A stretch of 20,305 nt of DNA from a virus. The stretch is from IMG/VR virus record IMGVR_UViG_3300031673_000605, positions 1 through 20,305 of that record. The stretch is one strand, 5' to 3'. Below are positions 4,778-20,023 of this stretch, piece by piece; within the stretch, counting starts at the first letter, position 1, and each line of letters begins with the position of its first letter. Position numbers and translations under genes: made by a program. A model generated the notes under the pieces. That model worked only from the letters and a program-made list of their open reading frames with translations, did not search any database and was not told where the DNA came from.

Positions 4778-5131
4778 ATGACCCAACCCACTTTTGCCAT
4801 CGCTTGTGAATATGGCCTAACGGTACGCAGAGGCAATCGCACGCTTAAGGCACAATTTGGCGATGGTTACGAGCAAGTGAGTCCTAATGGCGTCAACACT
4901 GACATTCGTGAATACACCATTGATACGGCTCCCATTTCAGACGCAGCAGCAATTGCCCTGGATGCACAGCTTTCTGCACTCCGTGGTGATTTCTTTTACA
5001 GTCAATTTTTCATGGATGATAGTCTATATAAATATCGACTAGAGCCCAATTCGTGGCAATGGCGCGTACTTGGACCTAATAACAATTCCTTTAGCTTTGC
5101 CGTAAGGAGGATTTATGACGCTAGAAGCTGA
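4778..5131 (+). CDS. Minor tail protein, lambda gpM-like
   Basis: The 117-residue product is close to the length of lambda gpM (about 109). The N-terminal pattern TVRRGNRTLKAQFGDGYEQV, with a Gly-rich FGDGYEQ turn, and the later ALRGDFFYSQFF and W-rich C-terminal strands fit the phage minor tail protein M family, a small beta-structured tail-tip component related to tail tube folds. It sits between the tape measure and L-like genes, the expected lambda order. Its start is 3 bases after the tape measure stop and is preceded by AGGGAGG at about 4762-4768. The last 17 bases overlap the next gene. The family call combines motif and order; the precise role in tip assembly is inferred from lambda. 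Confidence 0.85.
   Translation: MTQPTFAIACEYGLTVRRGNRTLKAQFGDGYEQVSPNGVNTDIREYTIDTAPISDAAAIALDAQLSALRGDFFYSQFFMDDSLYKYRLEPNSWQWRVLGPNNNSFSFAVRRIYDARS
5103..5110 (+). promoter_or_regulatory. Strong ribosome binding site for the L-like gene
   Basis: TAAGGAGG lies inside the end of the M-like gene, four bases before ATG 5115. It fixes the L-like start and explains how that gene is translated although it begins 17 bases before its neighbour ends. Confidence 0.8.
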
Positions 5132-6293
5132 CGTTCAACAAAGCTGGCATGATGCTATTGTCGAAATGTTCGATGTGGACTTGTCTGGTCTTACAAATAG
5201 TCCTGCTGATATTTTTTATTTTACAAATCAACTGAAAGAAGACGGCACAAAGGTGCAATGGAAAGGAGAAACTTATGAGCCATTGCCTATTATTTCGGCA
5301 GGTTACGACAAAAATACTAATGGGCAAATCGCGCAACCATCTTTAACAGTGGCAAATGTGCTTGGCACTTTTACGCAAGTGGTAGCATCATACGATGATT
5401 TAGTAGGAGCGAAAATCACAAGACGCCGCACCTTACAAAAATACCTAGACGGCAGCCCGCAGGCTGATGCTTTGCAAGAATTTCCCGTTGATATTTTTTA
5501 CATTGAACGCAAAACGCAAGAAACTGCGTTAACCATTACATGGCAACTTAGTAATGTTCTTGATCTTGAAGGAGTAAAACTTCCTCGTCGTGTCATTACA
5601 CAAAATCTTTGTTTGTGGCGGTATCGCAGCAGTGAATGCAGTTACACAGGCGCTCCAGTTTTTAATTCTCGTGATCAAGTAATTAGTACGGCAGGGCAGA
5701 CAGCTCAAGGAATTGCTGTTATCAATGCATGGTACTTGAGAGAACAGCGCAAGGCACAACTGCAAGCGTCTCGTCAAGCGTATAACCAAGCGCTCGGTAA
5801 CCAGCAAGCGCAATGCGCTGCTGCTGTCTTACTAGAGACAAAATACAGTGAATCGTCGCCCTCTAGTTTTGTATTAAGAAGTCCAGACGGCCCTTTTAGT
5901 AGCGGTGGTGCCACCAGATTTTTGGCTGTCTTTAATGACAACTCTGTACCCATTGGACCAACATACAGACAGGGTCGTCAAAGAAAGGAAGTTTTTATTA
6001 AATTTTTAGGTCCAGCTTATTACTACGAGATAGAGCGATGGGGAGTTAGCCCTGGAACATGTGCAGCCGCTGGAGTTACGGCTTCTAATGCGTTAGCGGC
6101 TATTACAACTGCGCAAAACAACCTCAATAGTGCAGAGGCAGCGTTGACGGCGGCGACTGCAGCGTTGCCTAGTAATGACCCTCTCAGGCTTTCAGACGTA
6201 TGCGGCAAACGTGTCTCTAGTTGTGCTTTGCGTTTCCCTGCGCAATCGCTACCATTTGGAGGCTTCCCTGGTGCTAATTTAACGAGAGGCTGA
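5115..6293 (+). CDS. Minor tail protein, lambda gpL-like, with a large insertion in the Fe-S loop
   Basis: This 392-residue tail-tip protein has the N-terminal fold pattern of lambda gpL (a strand-rich region to about residue 160). The C-terminal part carries four cysteines that match the Fe-S ligands of lambda gpL. C166 and C175 (NLCLWRYRSSECSYTG) are nine apart, and C363 and C370 (VCGKRVSSCALRF) are seven apart. From memory the lambda ligands C173/C182 and C205/C212 have the same two spacings. The gap between the pairs is 188 residues here against about 23 in lambda, so roughly 165 residues are inserted. The insert starts and ends with Ala/Gln-rich helical stretches (about 203-245 and 317-352) around a more globular middle. 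It also contains two extra cysteines, near residues 235 and 316. The stop overlaps the next start (TGATG). The family call is firm; the insert's function is unknown. Confidence 0.88.
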   Translation: MTLEADVQQSWHDAIVEMFDVDLSGLTNSPADIFYFTNQLKEDGTKVQWKGETYEPLPIISAGYDKNTNGQIAQPSLTVANVLGTFTQVVASYDDLVGAKITRRRTLQKYLDGSPQADALQEFPVDIFYIERKTQETALTITWQLSNVLDLEGVKLPRRVITQNLCLWRYRSSECSYTGAPVFNSRDQVISTAGQTAQGIAVINAWYLREQRKAQLQASRQAYNQALGNQQAQCAAAVLLETKYSESSPSSFVLRSPDGPFSSGGATRFLAVFNDNSVPIGPTYRQGRQRKEVFIKFLGPAYYYEIERWGVSPGTCAAAGVTASNALAAITTAQNNLNSAEAALTAATAALPSNDPLRLSDVCGKRVSSCALRFPAQSLPFGGFPGANLTRG

Positions 6294-6997
6294 TGTTTAA
6301 AGACTTACGAGCTGAAATGAGAGCGCACGCATTGACGGCGCCAGAAGAGGAAGTTTGTGGTCTTATTGCAGGAGGCAAATACATTCCTTGTAAAAACCTT
6401 CATTCTTTCCCATCGTCTAATTTTGCAATTGACGCCAAAGCATATGCAAAGGCAGAAAAAAAAGGAGAGATAGAAGGCATCTTTCATTCGCATCCTGGTT
6501 TTATAGGTGGCTTTAGCCGTCACGACATTGAAGCATGCAAAACTAGCAATTTGCCCTGGTTAGTGCTGGCTGTAGGCTTGAACGAATGGCATGAAATGTC
6601 ACCCTATGGAGATGCCCCTTACATTGGTAGACCATGGCTTTATGGTATGTACGATTGCTATGGCGTATTTAGAGATTTTTATAAAAACGAATTTGGCATA
6701 GTGCTAGATGATTTTGATAGAGGACAAGAGTTTGAATGGAGCAGTCCAGAATGGCGCATGTTTGAAAAAAATGTAACTGACCAAGGCTTTGTTGAGATTG
6801 GCAAGCTAGAGAAAAAAGGCGATATGATTTTGATGCAACTGCAGTGTGATTTCGTCAATCACATCGGAGTATTGGCACGGCCTAATGAAAACGTGTTCTA
6901 TCATCATCTTCTAGATAGACTGTCAGAAGAGAATGTCTATGGGGGTTATTGGGAGAAATGCACCAAACGCCTAATGCGACATAAGGAGCTGTTCTAA
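6293..6997 (+). CDS. Tail-tip assembly protein, lambda gpK-like (JAMM protease plus NlpC/P60)
   Basis: Two hydrolase domains are visible in 234 residues. Residues 1-105 are an MPN/JAMM metalloprotease-like domain with E20 (EEVCG) and H65-S-H67-x7-S75-x2-D78, an exact match to the zinc-binding JAMM signature. Residues from about 110 to the end are an NlpC/P60-like domain with the nucleophile in YDCYGVFRDFY (C122) and a candidate catalytic His in VNHIGV (H190), followed by the FYHHLLDRLSE segment seen in gpK relatives. Both active sites look intact. In this family the NlpC/P60 part is thought to cut peptidoglycan during entry, and the JAMM part may process a tail protein. The start overlaps the L-like stop by one base, and the end overlaps the I-like start by one base, so translation is probably coupled. 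Confidence 0.93.
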   Translation: MFKDLRAEMRAHALTAPEEEVCGLIAGGKYIPCKNLHSFPSSNFAIDAKAYAKAEKKGEIEGIFHSHPGFIGGFSRHDIEACKTSNLPWLVLAVGLNEWHEMSPYGDAPYIGRPWLYGMYDCYGVFRDFYKNEFGIVLDDFDRGQEFEWSSPEWRMFEKNVTDQGFVEIGKLEKKGDMILMQLQCDFVNHIGVLARPNENVFYHHLLDRLSEENVYGGYWEKCTKRLMRHKELF

Positions 6998-7635
6998 TGC
7001 AAATGGTAGAAATCAAGCTTTTAGGAGAACTAGGCCGTAAGTTTGGGCGAAAGCATTGTTTCATGGCGCATTCTGCGAGGGATGTTTTTTCTGCACTATC
7101 CAACCAATTGGAAGGTTTTAAAGAGTATTTGTGCGCTGCTCACGAAAAAGGCGTTGGTTTTAAGCTTATAGACGATGATGTCGATGGGATGGATTATGAG
7201 AATGTACTAATGGGCTGCAGGCGATTAATTATTGCCCCCATTGTTTCTGGAGGAGGATCTACTGGCAGGATTTTAATTGGAGTGGCCCTTGTTGCATTGG
7301 CTTTTGTCAGCTTCGGTAGCAGCACGATTTTTGCTGGCTTTCTAGGAGCACAAGCCGCAGCAGCAGCGGGAGTTTCAGCAGGGTTTTCTCTTGGCAGTGG
7401 ACTGTTATTTTCACTGGGAACCTCTCTTGTACTTACTGGCGTTTCTTCGCTTCTCTCTCCCACACCTGACCTTTCTAAATCTAAAGAGGCAGATCGTGTT
7501 GATAGTTTCCTTTTTGATCGCAGCGCGGCTCTTACAGTTCAAGGACAGCCAGTACCTCTGCTCTACGGCAAATTCCTTGCTGTTTCTCCATTAGTCATCT
7601 CTTCCGCTATTACTACTCAACAGGTGCCAATCTGA
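6997..7635 (+). CDS. Tail assembly protein, lambda gpI-like
   Basis: The 212-residue product is close to lambda gpI (about 223). The N-terminal 80 residues look like a beta-grasp/ubiquitin-like fold (MVEIKLLGELGRKFGRKH). Two long hydrophobic, Ala/Gly-rich segments follow at about 88-112 and 115-155. The conserved C-terminal motif QGQPVPLLYGKFLAVSP lies near 185-201. In lambda, I acts together with L, K and J in forming the tail tip and may not remain in the virion. It is preceded by AAGGAG at 6983-6988 and starts within the K-like stop (TAATG). A second in-frame Met at codon 3 is an alternative start. It ends one base into the J-like gene. Confidence 0.9.
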   Translation: MQMVEIKLLGELGRKFGRKHCFMAHSARDVFSALSNQLEGFKEYLCAAHEKGVGFKLIDDDVDGMDYENVLMGCRRLIIAPIVSGGGSTGRILIGVALVALAFVSFGSSTIFAGFLGAQAAAAAGVSAGFSLGSGLLFSLGTSLVLTGVSSLLSPTPDLSKSKEADRVDSFLFDRSAALTVQGQPVPLLYGKFLAVSPLVISSAITTQQVPI

Positions 7636-9770
7636 TGGGAGAGAGTCTTTACGAAAAGGAAGGCGGTTGGGAAATTGTCATTAGCGGCTCTGGCGGAGGC
7701 GGCGGCGGTAAGGGCGGCGGCGGCGGCGGCAAAAAGGGAGGAGGAGGTCGCGAGCCTGAAGAAGATCCAGAATCTCTCCGAAGTCGTTCGGAAGCTACAG
7801 TTGTCGGCTTGATTTCCGAAGGAGAAGTGTTTGGTTTTGAGCCTGGAGTGGATCCTCTCACTAAAATTTTTCTTGATAATACGCCAATTAAAAACCTTGA
7901 TGGCAGCTTTAACTATGGAGTGTCTACGTTTTTTACTGGCAGCTCTTCGTCAGCCAACGGCAAAGGTAATTTACAGCCTGCCATCGCCCAAAGCATTCCA
8001 GGCTTGCAACGTGGCACAGTCACTGGGCAAGTCAATTCGTTGGTGGTCGATTATCGCGTGAGCACACAAAATCAAGACCCCATGCCAGGTTTTAACGATG
8101 TTAGAGCAGAGCAGAGCGTGGGCCTGCGACTAGCACGAGCAAGCGGCCCCATCTCTCGTACAACGCTTGCAAGTAATTTTAACCGCCTTCGCCTTAGGGT
8201 TGGTATTGGTGCGTTGTTTTATATTGATAAAGAAACTGGCGATGTGAAAGGACGCACTGTTTCTTTTAATATAAAAATTAAGCCAATTGGAGGCTCTGAT
8301 TTTGTCAATCAAAATATTAACATTACAGGCAAATCACGAGGTCCGGTAGATTTTGAATATGAATTCGGCCTGACTGGCGCAGGTCCGTGGGTGGTAACGG
8401 TAGAGCGTCTCACTGAAGACCCCACAACAACGTCTATTTCAGACGATTTATTCTTCAAAGGTATTGTTGGCATTATTGATAGATCATTTCGCTATCCAAA
8501 TTCTTGCCTTATTGGTTTAAAAATTGGCGCTGAAAATTTTAGCGCGGTGCCAAAGATTGGAGCAGAATTGTATGGCGTAAAAGTAAAAATTCCCTCAAAC
8601 TATAATCCCTTTACAAGGCAATATTTTGGCGTATGGAACGGCACATTTCAGACTAATTGGACTAATAATCCGGCATGGATTTTTTATGATCTACTGACTA
8701 ATAGTCGCTATGGAGCAGGAGAATTTATTGATGCAACTCAAGTGGATAGATATAGTCTCTATCCCATTGCTCAGTATTGTGACGAGCTAGTGCCAGACGG
8801 CAGAGGAGGTCTAGAGCCTCGAATGACTTTTAATGCCTATATCACTGACAGAGGTAATGCTTACGAAGTGTTGAACGCTCTTGCGGCAGCATTCAGAGGG
8901 CTTACTTATTTTGCTGAAGGCACCATTATTGCTTTGCAAGACCGTCCTAAAAATGTCAGTAAAATCTTTTCCCCTGCCAATGTTATTCAAGAAGTGGATG
9001 ACAATGGGGAAACAACGACGCCGCCTTTTGTTTATGAAGGTTCCGCGAGGAAAGCTCGTAAAACTGTAGCTTTAGTAAGCTGGAATGATCCCTCTGACAG
9101 TTACAAAGAAAAAGTTGAATACGTGGAGGACGTTGACGGCACTTCTCGTTACGGCATTCAAGAAGTGGAAGTGCGAGCAATGGGAACCACTTCTCAAGGA
9201 CAAGCTCAGCGTGTTGGGCGGTGGATATTACTGACCAATCAGCTTGAAACTTCTACAATCACTTTCAAAGTGGCCACTGAAGGTAACTTTATTTTACCCG
9301 GTGAAATTATTGGAGTGGCAGATCCTGCTAAACAAGGGAAGCGCTTTGGCGGGCGTATTTTAGGAGCCACTGTTTCTTCTGTTAACATTGATTCGCCTTT
9401 TGAAATTCTTTCAGGCAAGTCTTATTCGCTGTCTGTAATGCTTGAAGATGGTTCTGTTCAAGCTCGTACTGTCACTAACGGTGCAGGAAGCTCTTCGACT
9501 ATCACCATTTCTCCCCCATTGTCCTCTACCCCTCTTACAGGAGCTGTGTGGGTGCTGCAAGAAGATGGAGAGGGTTATGAGTTGTATCGCGTGGGAGGAA
9601 TTAACGAAGATTCAGGAGAAATGACCGTTTTCGCTACAGAATATAGCTTGACTAAATTTACTGAAGCGGATCAAGCTACTGCCTTAGGGCTGTCTCGCAC
9701 TTCTATTGCGGGTCCTCAAGTGGTGCCAAAAGTGGCTAATGGCAGCATCGTTCTGGAGGTAAACAAATAA
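7635..9770 (+). CDS. Tail tip/host specificity protein, lambda gpJ-like, short form
   Basis: The 711 residues align along their length with the N-terminal two thirds of lambda J (about 1132 residues). The clearest block is near residues 318-437: PSNYNPFTRQYFGVWNGTF, NPAWIFYDLLTNSRYGAG, YPIAQYCDELVPDGRGG, EPRMTFNAYITDRG and IALQDRP. All have close counterparts in lambda J. This part builds the central hub that closes the tail tube and transmits receptor contact. The N-terminus has a Gly/Lys-rich run (about residues 18-38) where lambda J has a short Gly/Lys/Ser-rich lead. What is missing is the FN3-containing and receptor-binding C-terminal part. An FN3-like gene follows immediately, so those functions seem to be split among separate proteins. 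The start overlaps the I-like stop by one base (TGATG). Confidence 0.93.
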   Translation: MGESLYEKEGGWEIVISGSGGGGGGKGGGGGGKKGGGGREPEEDPESLRSRSEATVVGLISEGEVFGFEPGVDPLTKIFLDNTPIKNLDGSFNYGVSTFFTGSSSSANGKGNLQPAIAQSIPGLQRGTVTGQVNSLVVDYRVSTQNQDPMPGFNDVRAEQSVGLRLARASGPISRTTLASNFNRLRLRVGIGALFYIDKETGDVKGRTVSFNIKIKPIGGSDFVNQNINITGKSRGPVDFEYEFGLTGAGPWVVTVERLTEDPTTTSISDDLFFKGIVGIIDRSFRYPNSCLIGLKIGAENFSAVPKIGAELYGVKVKIPSNYNPFTRQYFGVWNGTFQTNWTNNPAWIFYDLLTNSRYGAGEFIDATQVDRYSLYPIAQYCDELVPDGRGGLEPRMTFNAYITDRGNAYEVLNALAAAFRGLTYFAEGTIIALQDRPKNVSKIFSPANVIQEVDDNGETTTPPFVYEGSARKARKTVALVSWNDPSDSYKEKVEYVEDVDGTSRYGIQEVEVRAMGTTSQGQAQRVGRWILLTNQLETSTITFKVATEGNFILPGEIIGVADPAKQGKRFGGRILGATVSSVNIDSPFEILSGKSYSLSVMLEDGSVQARTVTNGAGSSSTITISPPLSSTPLTGAVWVLQEDGEGYELYRVGGINEDSGEMTVFATEYSLTKFTEADQATALGLSRTSIAGPQVVPKVANGSIVLEVNK
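7690..7752 (+). repeat. GGC/GGA-rich simple sequence encoding a poly-Gly/Lys run
   Basis: Runs of GGC, GGA and GGT codons interrupted by AAG/AAA encode three blocks of glycine separated by lysines near the N-terminus of the J-like protein. The tract is much more GC-rich than the flanking gene and is of a kind prone to replication slippage in multiples of three. Confidence 0.8.
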
Positions 9771-15424: not shown

Positions 15425-15981
15425 TGGCCTTTGTTGGACTTATAGCAGCACAAAATCTTTCCGATGTAAGCAGTGCAGAATCAACTTGGGATAATTTAGG
15501 AGCAAGCATTAGTTACACTTTTAATAATGTAACAACAAGCGGAGTTGTTATTAAGGGAGCAGACGTTCTTGCAGTTACTGGCATTAACAGGGTCAGCGCA
15601 AGAGATCTTTTGCTTTTGCGAGGTCTTACTAGTAATGCACAGATAAGGCTTAATACAGTTAGCCAGCAAGTGGCATCTGGTATTATTCTTCAAAATAATG
15701 CACTGCTGCGTGCATCTCCATTGTCTGTTGGAGATTATTCGCTTAATGGAAATCTAGACGTACAAAATTTACAAATTAATGGAGTGGCAGCACAGTCGCT
15801 GGCCACGGCGCCCTTCTCTGGCAGCACTGCTTCCACCTCTATATTGCTAGACAATGTGATCGTCTCTAGTGGCTTTACAGTTCAAAATACTCTTAGCATT
15901 GGCACAGTAGCAGCGCCAGAAGTGGCTATTCCCGTAAGGGACGGCAACTATATTTACTATTTAAAGGCGGGGCAATCATGA
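15424..15981 (+). CDS. Short tail-fibre protein with NLGx-type N-terminal motif (1 of 3)
   Basis: The N-terminus of this 185-residue protein, AAQNLSDVSSAESTWDNLGA, matches the short motif NL-x-D-x(n)-NLG seen at the start of many phage fibre proteins, and is shared with the next two genes. The rest is rich in Ser, Asn, Val and Leu with SGVVIKG, SPLSVGDYSLNGNLDVQNL and a closing VAIPVRDGNYIYYLKAG. Low complexity and strand periodicity suggest a trimeric fibre shaft ending in a small cap. GGGAGG at about 15411-15416 precedes ATG 15424, which overlaps the upstream stop. The 3' end overlaps the next gene by four bases (ATGA). The receptor, if any, is unknown. Confidence 0.6.
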   Translation: MAFVGLIAAQNLSDVSSAESTWDNLGASISYTFNNVTTSGVVIKGADVLAVTGINRVSARDLLLLRGLTSNAQIRLNTVSQQVASGIILQNNALLRASPLSVGDYSLNGNLDVQNLQINGVAAQSLATAPFSGSTASTSILLDNVIVSSGFTVQNTLSIGTVAAPEVAIPVRDGNYIYYLKAGQS

Positions 15982-17318
15982 CGCAACAGTTTGGTTTTCG
16001 TGCCGCTAGAAACTTAGCAGAAGTTGAAGACAGGGATGATTGCTGGGATAACTTAGGCATTGACAGGCGTGACTTAGCTTTGCTAGTGGGCACTAGCGCC
16101 GCTGGTGTAACAGAAGGAGATTATTTTAATTGCAAAGATTTAAGCACTTTTCTAGAGCCTCAAATTAGTGGGCTCACGGTGGGAGCGGCCTCTGGACTGG
16201 TGGCAATGCTCGGCAAGATCAGCAAAAATGGAGATTCTGGTATTGGCACTCTCTCTGGTGCCACTGTTAATAATGATCGTGCTTATTACAACGCTGCATT
16301 TGACATACTTTCAGCATCCACTGATAGCTTCTTCTCTCCTACTACGGCATCAGGATACAACGCTGGCGCTCAATATTTAATTGGCCCTGCTTCTATTCCT
16401 GATTTAACTATTAGCGGCTTTAATTTTGCAGGAGATACAAAACAATGGTCTGATTACTTTGTCAAATATCGCACTCATTTAAGACTTACGGATAGTGGCG
16501 GCACCCTTCGTTTTTCGCCATTGTATTTAGCTCCACCAACGGTGCTGGACTCTAATGTTTTATGGCTTGATTCAGAATTTAGTCAAATTACTTTAGATGG
16601 CGTGGGGGTAAGACGATGGGAAGACGTGCTGCAACGAGCTAATGCTTCACAAACTGAAGCTGCTTATCGCCCTACTGTTATCACCAGCGACCTCAATGGT
16701 AAAGCCGCCGTTCAATTTGATGGCAGTAATGATTTTCTTAACATTGGCACAATTGGAGCAACCTTGTCAACAGGAGCCACTCTTGTCGTTGCGCTAAGCC
16801 TTAGCAATGCGATAACGGCTGGTGATGCCGTCTACTGCATTGTTAGCTCATTGGCTAATATTTCTAGCTCTTGGCGCAGTGGTAGCGGCAATGGCGCATG
16901 GGGCTTGTTTACAAGCAGCATCATTTCCAACTTTCCCACTGCAATGCCAGTTAATGGCACCCTGATTATGAGCGTAAGGGCAAGCACTGCCTATGGTCTT
17001 GAATTTAGGCTTGATGGTGCAAGAAAAACTTTCATTGCTCCCCCTTCATACACTTACTCCAGCGCAGGTAATTTTGTAATTGGTGTGAGCGATTCAGTGA
17101 GTCGCTCCAATGCTTTTCAGGGCAGTATTAGCTCCTTGGCACTGTTCAATGAAGTGTTGAGTGATGCTGAGCTGCTTTCGCAGGAAGAGTATTTACGATG
17201 GAGATATGGCTTTGTCTTTGATCCAGATGCGGCTGATTTATCGTTTACAAAAGTAATTCATGATGAACGAGTGAATTTGTTTAGGCTTGAAGACGATTCC
17301 ATTTTGGAGGCTGGTTAA
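15978..17318 (+). CDS. Tail-fibre/receptor-binding protein with LamG/concanavalin-like lectin domain (2 of 3)
   Basis: In this 446-residue protein, residues 1-40 carry the shared anchor motif ARNLAEVEDRDDCWDNLGID. Residues 40-185 are strand-rich and of unknown fold. Residues about 187-412 look like a concanavalin/LamG jelly-roll: LWLDSEFSQITLDGVGVRRWEDV, GKAAVQFDGSNDFLNIG, LIMSVRAS, LEFRLDGARK, NFVIGVSD and FQGSISSLALFNEVLSDAEL. The FDGSNDFL and IASLALFN-like blocks are the usual signature. Such domains bind glycans, so a role in recognising host surface polysaccharide is plausible. The C-terminal 30 residues are charged. The start is inside the previous gene's stop. This is the best candidate in the window for a sugar-binding adhesin; the ligand cannot be read from sequence. 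Confidence 0.75.
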   Translation: MTQQFGFRAARNLAEVEDRDDCWDNLGIDRRDLALLVGTSAAGVTEGDYFNCKDLSTFLEPQISGLTVGAASGLVAMLGKISKNGDSGIGTLSGATVNNDRAYYNAAFDILSASTDSFFSPTTASGYNAGAQYLIGPASIPDLTISGFNFAGDTKQWSDYFVKYRTHLRLTDSGGTLRFSPLYLAPPTVLDSNVLWLDSEFSQITLDGVGVRRWEDVLQRANASQTEAAYRPTVITSDLNGKAAVQFDGSNDFLNIGTIGATLSTGATLVVALSLSNAITAGDAVYCIVSSLANISSSWRSGSGNGAWGLFTSSIISNFPTAMPVNGTLIMSVRASTAYGLEFRLDGARKTFIAPPSYTYSSAGNFVIGVSDSVSRSNAFQGSISSLALFNEVLSDAELLSQEEYLRWRYGFVFDPDAADLSFTKVIHDERVNLFRLEDDSILEAG

Positions 17319-17320
17319 TC

Positions 17321-17848
17321 ATGACTCGCGGATTGGTTCGGAAAAACAATTTAAGGGATTTAATTAATCCAGAACGTGCAAGGATTAATCTTGGCCTGCA
17401 AAACAATGATTACAAACGCATCAAGGGGCTTTTCCTCTCGTCGGGACTAACCAATTTAGACGTACAGAAAATTGCAAACTCTTCCACTAATTTCCAGGAC
17501 CAAGTAGATTCTTCAACGGCACTGCTTGCAACAATCACGCCTGTTCTGTATGCAGACAAGGCAGGCGACACCTTGACTGGCACTTGGACTAATAGTGGCA
17601 AGATTGGTGCTAGTGGCGTTGTTGTTAGCGGCATTGTCCTTTCAGGAAGCACTGATGCATTATTTTCACGCTCTTCGCCATTGTCCTCTCTTCAAATTGA
17701 AACAGCTTCTGGAGTGGTACTACCAAGTGGTTTAATCGTCAATAATGTCACTAGTAGCGGCAATGTGGTGGTTGCATCTGGAAAAGTGGCCAGTGTGACA
17801 ATGGGAATCAGCATAAGGGGAGTGCCTTATAAAATTGATTTAGCCTAA
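17321..17848 (+). CDS. Short tail-fibre protein with NLGx-type N-terminal motif (3 of 3)
   Basis: The N-terminus of this 175-residue protein, KNNLRDLINPERARINLGLQ, carries the common fibre motif. The body parallels the gene at 15424: DALFSRSSPLSSLQIETASG resembles its counterpart's ALLRASPLSVGDYSLNG, and ASGVVVSGIVLSG resembles TSGVVIKGADVLA. Both end in a short strand pair (here GISIRGVPYKIDLA). It is therefore a likely paralogue of that gene on the other side of the lectin gene. TTGGAGG at about 17303-17309 precedes ATG 17321, two bases after the lectin gene's stop. No catalytic or transmembrane features are seen. A fibre-shaft or chaperone-like partner role is inferred. Confidence 0.6.
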   Translation: MTRGLVRKNNLRDLINPERARINLGLQNNDYKRIKGLFLSSGLTNLDVQKIANSSTNFQDQVDSSTALLATITPVLYADKAGDTLTGTWTNSGKIGASGVVVSGIVLSGSTDALFSRSSPLSSLQIETASGVVLPSGLIVNNVTSSGNVVVASGKVASVTMGISIRGVPYKIDLA

Positions 17849-17866
17849 ACGTTGGTAGACTATGAT
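17835..17866 (+). promoter_or_regulatory. Possible promoter before the S74 fibre gene
   Basis: TTGATT (17835-17840) and TATGAT (17861-17866) resemble -35 and -10 boxes, but the spacer is 20 bases, longer than ideal. The site lies in the first real gap (41 bases) of an otherwise overlapping gene chain. The match is weak. Confidence 0.25.
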
Positions 17867-17889
17867 TAATTACTGCTTAGATTGCGATT

Positions 17890-19653
17890 GTGACTAAAAT
17901 CTCTCAGCTCTCGTCCATTGGTGATTCACTGGCCATCGGCGATCAGTTTTTGATTAGGGATATTGACGATACGGGAAGCCCGAATAAAAGCGTTACGGTC
18001 AGTGGCATCACGAGGGCCTTGAACCTTGGCACGGCTGCGGCTCCAGCCATTGCCTTCGCAAGTGACAAGAACACCGGCATCTACAGCCCTGGTGCTGACC
18101 AAGTAGCCATCAGCACTAATACACAAGAACGCCTGCGCATCACCTCGGCAGGGCTCGTAGGCATAGGGACTAGTTCCCCTAACACTAATAGCCAACTTCA
18201 TGTTGTTGGCTCAGGTTACAATCCGCTGTATCTTGATACTACTATTGCAGGAGGGGGTGGTATTTCCCTCCTGCAAGGGAATGTTCAGGCACTATATGCA
18301 GGAACTGGAGGCTCTTCTTGGTTGTCTGGGTCAGCCACTACAGATGGCTTGGTTAGGGCAGAAGCAAATTTATTGTTTGCTACCGGCGGAAATAACGAGC
18401 GGATGCGAATCGACAGCTCGGGCCATGTGGGGGTTGGCACTGCGAGCCCCAGTGACACATCCGGTTTTGGTGGAACTCTAGATATTAACGGAACCACTGG
18501 CGCAGCTTGTTATGTACGCACCAATGGAAGTGCTACTGATTATGGACTCATCGGCCATTACGGAGCAGACTTTTACGTCAACAATAACTCCAATGGCCCA
18601 ACACTCTTTCTCACGAATGGATCCGAACGCCTGCGAATCGACAGCTCGGGTGTTGTAAAACTAACTCAATCTGGAAGCAATCCACGTTATGGATCGCTTG
18701 AAACGTCTAGTGATGCTTTTAAGTTAAAAGCGTTTAGTGGCAATGCTAGTCATAACGCCACGATGCAGTTTTTCACTGGCGCTGATTCACCAACCGAACG
18801 CCTACGAATCGACAGCTCGGGCAGGCTGTTAGTTGGTACGTCTAGTTACGCCGGCAACGGCAAATTAGTCACGGCAGGGAATACTGGTGGTAATGCCGGA
18901 ACATTTGATATTTGCTGGGGTGGATCACGTCCAACTGCCGCAAATACAGATATTGGCTACATTCGTTGGTATAGCGCTGATAACTCTTCAGCTAACGCAC
19001 ATTACGCAAGTATTTATGCTTCTAGCGACGGAACTAGCTCTTCTGGAAGTGATATTCCAGGCCGCCTAACATTCTCCACTACGAGAGACGGTCAAAGCAG
19101 CCCAACCGAGGCAATGCGTATTACGCAAGCGGGCAAGTTAATCTTAAATGACACTTCTACCGCCGCGTCTGCAAGATTTGGTATTACTGCTGATCTTAAT
19201 AATGACAACGGTCTTCTTATAAAAAACTCTGTCACGCAAGGAGCTGGACAAAACTTTGTTACTTTTTTAAACTCGGCTGCCAATACTGCAGGCGCGATCA
19301 CGCATAATGGCACTACAACGGTCAACTACGCTACATCTTCAGACTACCGTCTAAAGGAGAACGTTGTTGCAGTTATTGATGGTATTACCCGCCTGCAGCA
19401 ACTGAAACCGAACCGTTTTAACTTTATTGCGGACCCAGACAAAACCGTTGATGGCTTCATCGCTCATGAAGTCCAGGATGTTGTTCCTGAGGCAATCAAC
19501 GGCACCAAGGATGAAATCGATGATGAAGGCAACCCCATCTACCAAGGCATCGACCAATCCAAACTTGTACCACTACTAACAGCAGCACTACAAGAAGCAA
19601 TCGCAAAGATCGAAACCTTAGAACAGCGTCTGTCTGATGCTGGTATCGCCTAG
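17890..19653 (+). CDS. Tail fibre with C-terminal S74 self-cleaving chaperone domain
   Basis: In this 587-residue protein, residues 1-45 (KISQLSSIGDSLAIGDQF, LIRDIDDTGSPNKSVTVSGI) match a common cyanophage fibre anchor. Residues about 50-470 form a beta-rich shaft with five copies of an ERLRI-x-SSG unit, the first two followed by VGIG/VGVG-T-x-SP. The C-terminal domain (about 475-587) has SSDYRLKEN with S484 and K489, the Ser-Lys pair spacing of peptidase S74, then FGF-like GFIAHEVQDVVPEA and a terminal coiled coil (LQEAIAKIETLEQRL). In this family the domain helps the fibre trimerise and then cuts itself off. The start is GTG 17890, just after an in-frame TAG at 17878; no clear ribosome binding site is seen, and ATT 17881 or 17887 cannot be excluded. 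The first part of the gene is more GC-rich (about 58% at 18001-18120 by hand count) than its neighbours. Confidence 0.93.
   Translation: MTKISQLSSIGDSLAIGDQFLIRDIDDTGSPNKSVTVSGITRALNLGTAAAPAIAFASDKNTGIYSPGADQVAISTNTQERLRITSAGLVGIGTSSPNTNSQLHVVGSGYNPLYLDTTIAGGGGISLLQGNVQALYAGTGGSSWLSGSATTDGLVRAEANLLFATGGNNERMRIDSSGHVGVGTASPSDTSGFGGTLDINGTTGAACYVRTNGSATDYGLIGHYGADFYVNNNSNGPTLFLTNGSERLRIDSSGVVKLTQSGSNPRYGSLETSSDAFKLKAFSGNASHNATMQFFTGADSPTERLRIDSSGRLLVGTSSYAGNGKLVTAGNTGGNAGTFDICWGGSRPTAANTDIGYIRWYSADNSSANAHYASIYASSDGTSSSGSDIPGRLTFSTTRDGQSSPTEAMRITQAGKLILNDTSTAASARFGITADLNNDNGLLIKNSVTQGAGQNFVTFLNSAANTAGAITHNGTTTVNYATSSDYRLKENVVAVIDGITRLQQLKPNRFNFIADPDKTVDGFIAHEVQDVVPEAINGTKDEIDDEGNPIYQGIDQSKLVPLLTAALQEAIAKIETLEQRLSDAGIA
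18127..19133 (+). repeat. Five dispersed in-frame repeats in the S74 fibre gene
   Basis: Copies lie at 18127-18153, 18397-18422, 18625-18650, 18796-18821 and 19108-19133. The middle three share cgaatcgacagctcggg exactly and encode E-R-(L/M)-R-I-D-S-S-G. The first and last are diverged (RITSAG, RITQAG). All are in the same reading phase, so recombination between copies would shorten or lengthen the fibre without a frameshift. Confidence 0.9.
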
Positions 19654-19714: not shown

Positions 19715-20023
19715 ATGACTCTTGCTGAATTGTGGGACGCTTACGTTGCCGAGCGTTCCATTTCTTTATGCCCTACCAGCCTTGTCTCTGATTATCGATT
19801 GGCATTCCAAAGCTATTTCCGCAAAAAGATGGCACCATTGCATCAGGCTGGTTTGATCTCCCATTTGTACAGGCCATATGACTGTCGTCACACTGCTATC
19901 AGTCGCTGGATTGAGGCAGGGATTCCCGTACCGCAGGTAGCAGCATGGGCCGGAAACACTAGCGAAGTAATCTTTAAGCACTACTGCAACACAACGCAGG
20001 AATATGAAATGCCAGTGCTGTAG
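19715..20023 (+). pseudogene. Tyrosine integrase with internal in-frame deletion
   Basis: The 102 residues join two distant parts of a tyrosine recombinase. Residues 1-37 (MTLAELWDAYVAER, DYRLAFQSYFRK) look like the start of the core-binding domain. Residues about 42-102 are the catalytic C-terminus, with RPYDCRHTAISRW (box II, R58 and H59; Y55 stands where His is usual), WAGNTSE (N81 at the usual His/Trp site) and the nucleophile Y90 in FKHY. The R58-to-Y90 distance of 32 matches full-length enzymes. The box I Arg, the beta-hairpin Lys and roughly 200 residues between are gone, at a join near 19820-19832. No stop or frameshift interrupts the remainder. Alone it should not catalyse recombination. 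It may be a decaying int gene, a regulator that binds att DNA, or an assembly artefact. The frame is open back to 19685. Confidence 0.72.

Follow-up and report, generated by a model that had tools for sequence, protein, structure and literature searches.

A predicted stalk-and-head module inserted between the iron–sulphur cysteine pairs of a lambda gpL-type tail-tip protein

Gene L in a viral DNA stretch of 20,305 nucleotides (IMG/VR record IMGVR_UViG_3300031673_000605, positions 1 to 20,305; hereafter the window) encodes a homologue of the lambda tail-tip/hub protein gpL that carries an insertion between the two cysteine pairs of its iron–sulphur (Fe–S) domain. At the level of the sequences, the insertion, its presence or absence among relatives, the near-fixed stalk lengths, a pair of additional cysteines and a fast-changing head are directly apparent, and the fold of both stalk and head is predicted. 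With moderate confidence, we read the insert as an adhesin-like arm that projects outward from the tail tip, a dispensable addition to an otherwise normal lambda-type gpL, whose head would touch the host surface.

Gene L occupies positions 5115–6293 on the + strand, and its translation comprises 392 residues within the gene order tape measure–M–L–K–I–J. The product matches the Pfam family PF05100 (Phage_tail_L) with an E-value of 1e-51 and 175.6 bits (cut-off 25) as well as phrog_18 (E 4e-75), which, together with the fold match to lambda gpL described below, bears out the L-like identity proposed in a preliminary description of this DNA. The Phage_tail_L match is split into two stretches, the best one covering residues 30–194; the split is caused by an insertion of about 165 residues that separates the cysteine pairs of the Fe–S domain. 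Six cysteines are present in the protein (166, 175, 234, 316, 363 and 370), of which C166/C175 and C363/C370, the putative ligands of a [4Fe–4S] cluster, form the Fe–S pairs with spacings of 9 and 7. The preliminary description had equated these spacings with those of lambda gpL, and the lambda sequence indeed has C173, C182, C205 and C212, which are the cluster ligands (PMC10721106). Whereas 22 residues separate the two pairs in lambda gpL, 187 do so in the window protein (C175 to C363, a distance of 188), yielding an excess of 165 residues. The earlier figures of a 188-residue loop against about 23 and of an insertion of about 165 residues therefore hold, and the interval given for it, 5640–6202, correctly corresponds to residues 176 to 363. 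As long forms retain the first 12–15 residues of the normal loop (GYTGxPVxxxxD), the insert proper starts at about residue 188 rather than 176 and extends to about residue 355, amounting to ~168 residues. Two further conserved cysteines within it, C234 and C316, had been overlooked, and the four Fe–S cysteines are invariant across the 62 gpL sequences of an alignment termed A4. The features of the gene are as follows.

5115–6293, + strand: gene L, tail-tip/hub protein with insert (Pfam Phage_tail_L, phrog_18, fold of 8iyk_L)
5115–5561, + strand: HDI attachment (tube-like) domain, residues 1–149, predicted β-sandwich (AlphaFold2; block predicted local distance difference test score, pLDDT, 69–93)
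5610–5639, + strand: first Fe–S pair, C166 and C175, spacing 9, invariant in A4, equivalent to lambda C173/C182 (PMC10721106)
5676–6179, + strand: inserted module, approximately residues 188–355 (~168 residues), missing in close homologues with a loop of exactly 22
5703–5813, + strand: predicted stalk helix 1, residues 197–233 (block pLDDT 86–97; also found with an independent alignment and model)
5814–5816, + strand: C234, additional cysteine where helix 1 reaches the head, 57–60 residues past the second Fe–S cysteine in 50 of 52 long forms
5826–6044, + strand: predicted β-rich head of six strands, residues 238–310 (block pLDDT 73–97; 34.5 of 46.5 nonsynonymous changes against L003/L278)
6051–6164, + strand: predicted stalk helix 2, residues 313–350 (block pLDDT 92–98)
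6060–6062, + strand: C316, additional cysteine where helix 2 leaves the head, 47 residues ahead of the third Fe–S cysteine in all 50 long forms having it
6201–6224, + strand: second Fe–S pair, C363 and C370, spacing 7, invariant in A4, equivalent to lambda C205/C212

To place the insert within its family, gpL homologues were gathered from IMG/VR, GTDB genomes and phage records. Among 169 distinct gpL containing both cysteine pairs, the loop length was bimodal, comprising either exactly 22 residues (117 sequences, a count that describes lineages rather than independent events, as it includes many near-copies from E. coli phages) or 167–293 residues (52 sequences), with no loop of intermediate length. 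A sample of 299 genomes from the Limnohabitans phylum gave PF05100 matches that almost all spanned the profile without such an insert, one match being split at another place. Thus, the long loop is not the norm of the family, a possibility that the preliminary description had raised against its own proposal; in lambda-type gpL the short loop prevails both in the collection and in the Limnohabitans-phylum sample. Since 51 other distinct gpL carry a loop of 167–293 residues at this position, including those of the isolates S-CBS4 (loop of 260) and S-2L (181), the insert is neither a chance feature nor a misassembly; the isolate KBS-S-2A represents the short form with 22 residues. When only the insert was searched against 50,697 phage genomes, not a single match appeared even at E 1, indicating that it diverges fast; the S-CBS4 insert used as a query retrieved only itself, and an alignment restricted to the insert was too poorly conserved to query the collection. 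Independently of this site, the profile match of a gpL of 428 residues from a bacterial genome (G110:C102:52848-54038) is split at position 94, where its sequence suggests an insertion of some 190 residues, in this case within the HDI domain.

The long forms share a common architecture. Their stalk flanks are near-fixed in length, with 57–60 residues between the second Fe–S cysteine and the first extra cysteine and 47 between the second extra cysteine and the third Fe–S cysteine, and the head enclosed by the extra cysteines ranges from 61 to 189 residues. Both extra cysteines are found in 50 of the 52 long forms and neither in the remaining two, so that a single one never occurs; L027 has lost both, while its nearest kin keep them. 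Such an all-or-none pattern of C234 and C316 would be expected of a disulphide or another obligate pair, and we consider that the two residues probably form a disulphide. All inserts are homologous to each other (A3 against A5, E 2e-21; S-2L, E 3e-11), and the longer heads of the S-CBS4 type (L048, A5 group; loops of 246–293) contain the head unit twice (hhalign E 7e-7).

We obtained two AlphaFold2 models from separate alignments, the first from 17 long forms and the second from 62 homologues with a mean pLDDT of 85, both of which predict the same helix–head–helix arrangement of the insert, the block pLDDT values being mostly 86–98 for the helices and 73–97 for the head. The predicted helical hairpin bearing a small β-domain agrees with the coiled-coil-like stalk holding out a small domain that had been suggested from the letters of the sequence. 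The C-terminal Fe–S segment follows helix 2 in the model, and the hinge at residues 150–162 is of low confidence. Structure comparison aligned the window HDI domain to the HDI of the lambda, T5, RcGTA, Chi and JBD30 hub proteins. The second model superimposed on lambda gpL (8iyk_L) with a Z-score of 19.4 over 208 of 232 residues at 31% identity, and Foldseek of the gene L model against the same chain yielded an E-value of 1.5e-15. As this alignment spans model residues 1–386, the base, Fe–S domain included, is retained in the model to either side of the insert; the root-mean-square deviation is large (8.5 Å), as expected given the uncertain hinge. For the insert itself, VIA-align returned generic helical hairpins, with Z-scores of at most 7.0 for the first model and up to 9.2 for the second. 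Foldseek with the first model gave no PDB match below 1e-3 and a single match below this value among viral models, A0A7T5QUL0 (435 residues), which we take by its length to be the S-2L L protein. Likewise, no match below E 0.1 was found in a PDB sequence search with head or insert, and none below 0.3 in a PHROG search with the insert.

The rate of change differs along gene L. Over 21 pairs of homologues, the median ratio of nonsynonymous to synonymous rates (dN/dS) was 0.04 for the HDI domain, 0.14–0.18 for the stalk and 0.23 for the head, so the insert (0.14–0.23) is under long-term purifying selection. Two close and mutually independent pairs, selected from these 21 because the head stood out, show a different distribution. 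Between the window and L003/L278, 34.5 nonsynonymous changes fall in the head and 12 in the remainder of the gene, the synonymous counts being 9.5 and 37 (p 4e-7). Between L255 and L253, the nonsynonymous counts are 18.5 in the head and 4 elsewhere, and the synonymous ones 3.5 and 8 (p 0.008), giving head dN/dS values of 1.1 and 1.4 versus the HDI median of 0.04. The import of a diverged segment was considered as the cause of these head changes and dropped, as the dS of the head is similar to that of the HDI domain in both pairs (0.19 and 0.26 for the window against L003/L278; 0.07 and 0.05 for L255 against L253). Other close pairs, L008/L009 and L064/L110 among them, display no concentration of changes in the head. 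Because the two pairs were picked and the others do not follow the pattern, a fair description is that the head evolves in bursts in some lineages.

A tree of the base calculated without the loop contains seven changes between long and short forms, six when the two longest branches are left out, and well-supported branches require at least two of these switches. Placing all long forms in one clade is rejected by the approximately unbiased test (p-AU 0.013), indicating that the module came and went while the neighbouring genes stayed. Grouping the 14 nearest short forms into one clade, corresponding to one loss, is compatible with the tree (p-AU 0.33). Gene order and the sizes of neighbouring genes are otherwise equal in long and short forms, and natural long/short pairs are ~74–80% identical in DNA over the base. 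L055 and L057 share an identical insert and C-terminus but differ in the HDI domain (dS 0.18), suggesting exchange by recombination with a joint located between HDI domain and insert.

The genes surrounding L within the window were assigned by profile matches as follows.

4778–5131, + strand: gene M, distal tail protein (Pfam Phage_min_tail, 9e-11)
6293–6997, + strand: gene K, JAB/NlpC-P60 tail protein (profile matches)
6997–7635, + strand: gene I, tail-tip plug/insertion protein (phrog_32, E 2e-39)
7635–9770, + strand: gene J, hub, 711 residues (phrog_31, E 8e-189; Phage-tail_3; FNIII-A_GpJ)

The J protein of the window is shorter than lambda J (gene 15505–18903) and lacks its long fibre part, and J mostly comprises 650–710 residues in long-loop and short-loop relatives alike. 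Host recognition by the window phage must therefore lie outside J, either in the downstream fibre-like genes, which reach up to an S74-ended protein at 17890–19653, or in the L arm. Kinship with S-CBS4 and S-2L makes it probable that the virus infects cyanobacteria; as no photosystem reaction-centre gene (PF00124) was found in 15 related records, this kinship is the sole basis of the host call. Four short-loop relatives (L240, L250, L080 and L082) encode an M of ~337–339 residues instead of 117, with a C-terminal extension of ~220 residues seen in none of the long-loop relatives among the loci compared for gene order; this long M is possibly an alternative surface decoration. At 19715–20023 of the window, an open frame of 102 residues resembles, by eye, an internally deleted tyrosine integrase in which an N-terminal piece is fused to a C-terminal piece containing CRHT and HY motifs.

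How the insert might act is best considered on the lambda tip, where the Fe–S domain of gpL lies on the outer surface (PMC10721106). In our preferred reading, the arm would leave this outer-surface domain through the loop between the cysteine pairs and extend as an antiparallel two-helix stalk of ~37 residues, roughly 55 Å, per helix, closed at its head end by the C234–C316 pair, probably as a disulphide, and terminating in the small β-head. If the tip holds three copies of gpL like that of lambda, three arms would surround the cone. By the same analogy the arms would point outward, and the head would most likely contact a host polysaccharide or an outer-membrane component, helping the tail tip to land or to orient. 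We infer the host-binding role of the head from its fast-changing free end, the on/off pattern of the module and the precedent of RcGTA and R4C detailed below.

Several points weigh against such an adhesin-like arm. The dN/dS of the head is about 1 and not significantly above it, so that a short-term relaxation of constraint could produce the same values. No fold match of weight was obtained for the head (best Z-score 7.0, first model), which consequently points to no known ligand, and the orientation of the stalk once the tip is assembled is taken from lambda by analogy. A C234–C316 disulphide would have to form late, since phage tails assemble in the reducing cytoplasm; disulphides in phage tails have precedents in T1 and Milano (PMC11945409). 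Finally, the arm is not essential for infection in general, because arm-less phages with the same neighbouring genes exist.

Other functions of the insert would predict different patterns in the same loci. The arm might serve as a docking bracket for other tail proteins, namely the side or tip fibres encoded downstream, with the head tracking its partner fibre. We regard this as unlikely. In its favour, exchange has altered the fibre-like genes downstream as well in both close pairs, a 236-residue protein being 63% identical (dS 1.4) between the window and L278 and a 582-residue one 77% identical (dS 1.6) between L255 and L253. However, the arm-less short-loop relatives keep the same downstream sizes (131, 136, ~232 and 581 residues), and the nearest downstream proteins of 131 and 136 residues are nearly unchanged even though the head has changed, with identities of 98.5 and 100% between L255 and L253. 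A mainly structural brace, packed against either J or the distal tail protein and stiffening the cone without binding any ligand, would suit the tightly fixed stalk length and the established use of two-helix hairpins as braces. We nevertheless find it improbable, as covariation with J or M and slow change at the contact end would be expected of a brace, whereas the free end is the fastest part while J is 97–99% identical in the same pairs, and J is of similar length in phages that have the arm and in those that lack it.

More remote from our preferred arm is a plug-like element. T5 pb3 offers a model for it, as its plug is inserted in a domain that corresponds, in its N-terminal part, to the C-terminal domain of gpL (PMC10721106). 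Yet the homologue of gpI, the lambda counterpart of the T5 plug, adjoins at 6997–7635 (phrog_32) with the same size in insert-less relatives, and the lambda Fe–S domain faces outwards (PMC10721106), making a plug very improbable. That the insert comes and goes among relatives might also suggest a selfish or neutral, functionless element, whether intein-like, a recent duplication or an assembly chimera. We give this hardly any credence: the insert is homologous even between deep lineages, where its lengths are fixed and its cysteines paired, is held by the purifying selection described above, is present in isolates and dozens of independent contigs, and has no copy outside gene L in ~300 loci. 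A bolder version of the arm, to which we assign only a slim chance, is a sensor lever, in which the host-bound head would pull through the disulphide-locked stalk on the Fe–S loop and the cluster would act as a mechanical or redox latch opening the gpL–gpJ cone.

Comparison with known hubs delineates what is shared and what is not. Lambda gpL (PF05100; PDB 8iyk chain L) has in common with the window protein the HDI domain, the hinge, the four-cysteine Fe–S domain with its spacings and the gene order M–L–K–I–J, and differs, together with all other short forms examined, in having exactly 22 residues between the pairs in place of the window's 187, which include the stalk-and-head module and two extra cysteines. 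The long loop is thus a departure within the PF05100 family, for which a loop of 22 residues is usual and not defining, since near kin whose protein is the same in all other respects differ in whether the loop is long or short. The gpL proteins of S-CBS4 and S-2L, annotated in their records only as phage tail protein or minor tail protein, contain inserts homologous to that of the window; in S-CBS4 the head unit is duplicated within its loop of 260, and S-2L lacks the extra cysteine pair in its loop of 181. In contrast, the minor tail protein CPKG_00061 of the marine Synechococcus phage KBS-S-2A is a gpL with a loop of 22.

Outside this family, the RcGTA hub Rcc01696 has its ion-binding domain (143–167 and 250–263) split by an oligosaccharide-binding domain at 168–249 (PMC7296036), and the R4C hub vBDshSR4C_014 shows the same arrangement with an inserted domain at 162–243 (PMC10276861). 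In both, the inserted domain is a proposed binder of host-surface sugars (PMC7296036, PMC10276861). As in window L, their iron-binding domain is interrupted between the cysteine pairs; unlike the window's stalked insert, theirs comprises about 80 residues and sits directly on the base, with no stalk described. The JBD30 upper baseplate protein gp50 has Cys147, 156, 238 and 245 (PMC11445458), corresponding in its sequence to spacings of 9 and 7 with 81 residues between C156 and C238, a long loop at the same site with no helical stalk apparent. R4C and JBD30 match both PF09931 and PF09356, a sister hub family, and not PF05100, whereas window L gave no match to PF09931 and 16.7 bits against PF09356, below the cut-off of 22.9. 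No sequence relation was detected between the window insert and those of R4C and JBD30. The structures 6tba_7A and 8gtc_P align to the window model over the HDI domain only (1–153), and a weak structural relation of the heads is possible.

Accordingly, of the extra surface module on a metal-cluster loop put forward in the preliminary description, the insertion and its predicted stalk and head stand, and novelty in kind does not, as modules at this Fe–S loop were already known from RcGTA and R4C and a long loop from JBD30 gp50. What is new is a stalked, cysteine-paired module with a variable head that is present or absent within one close phage group, and no description of the module was found in the papers searched. 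The Fe–S loop of gpL-type hubs seems to have served more than once as a site for attaching surface modules, of which the present one is a second and different example, found in phages related to cyanophages. This raises the question of why surface modules hang on a metal-cluster loop whose function is unexplained; were the sensor lever true, the long-unexplained gpL cluster would gain a job in triggering. As the arm is present in some close relatives and missing from others, its suspected host-gripping role is directly testable, and these natural pairs together with the fast-changing heads would provide a clean test of the share of the hub in host choice, apart from that of the fibres.
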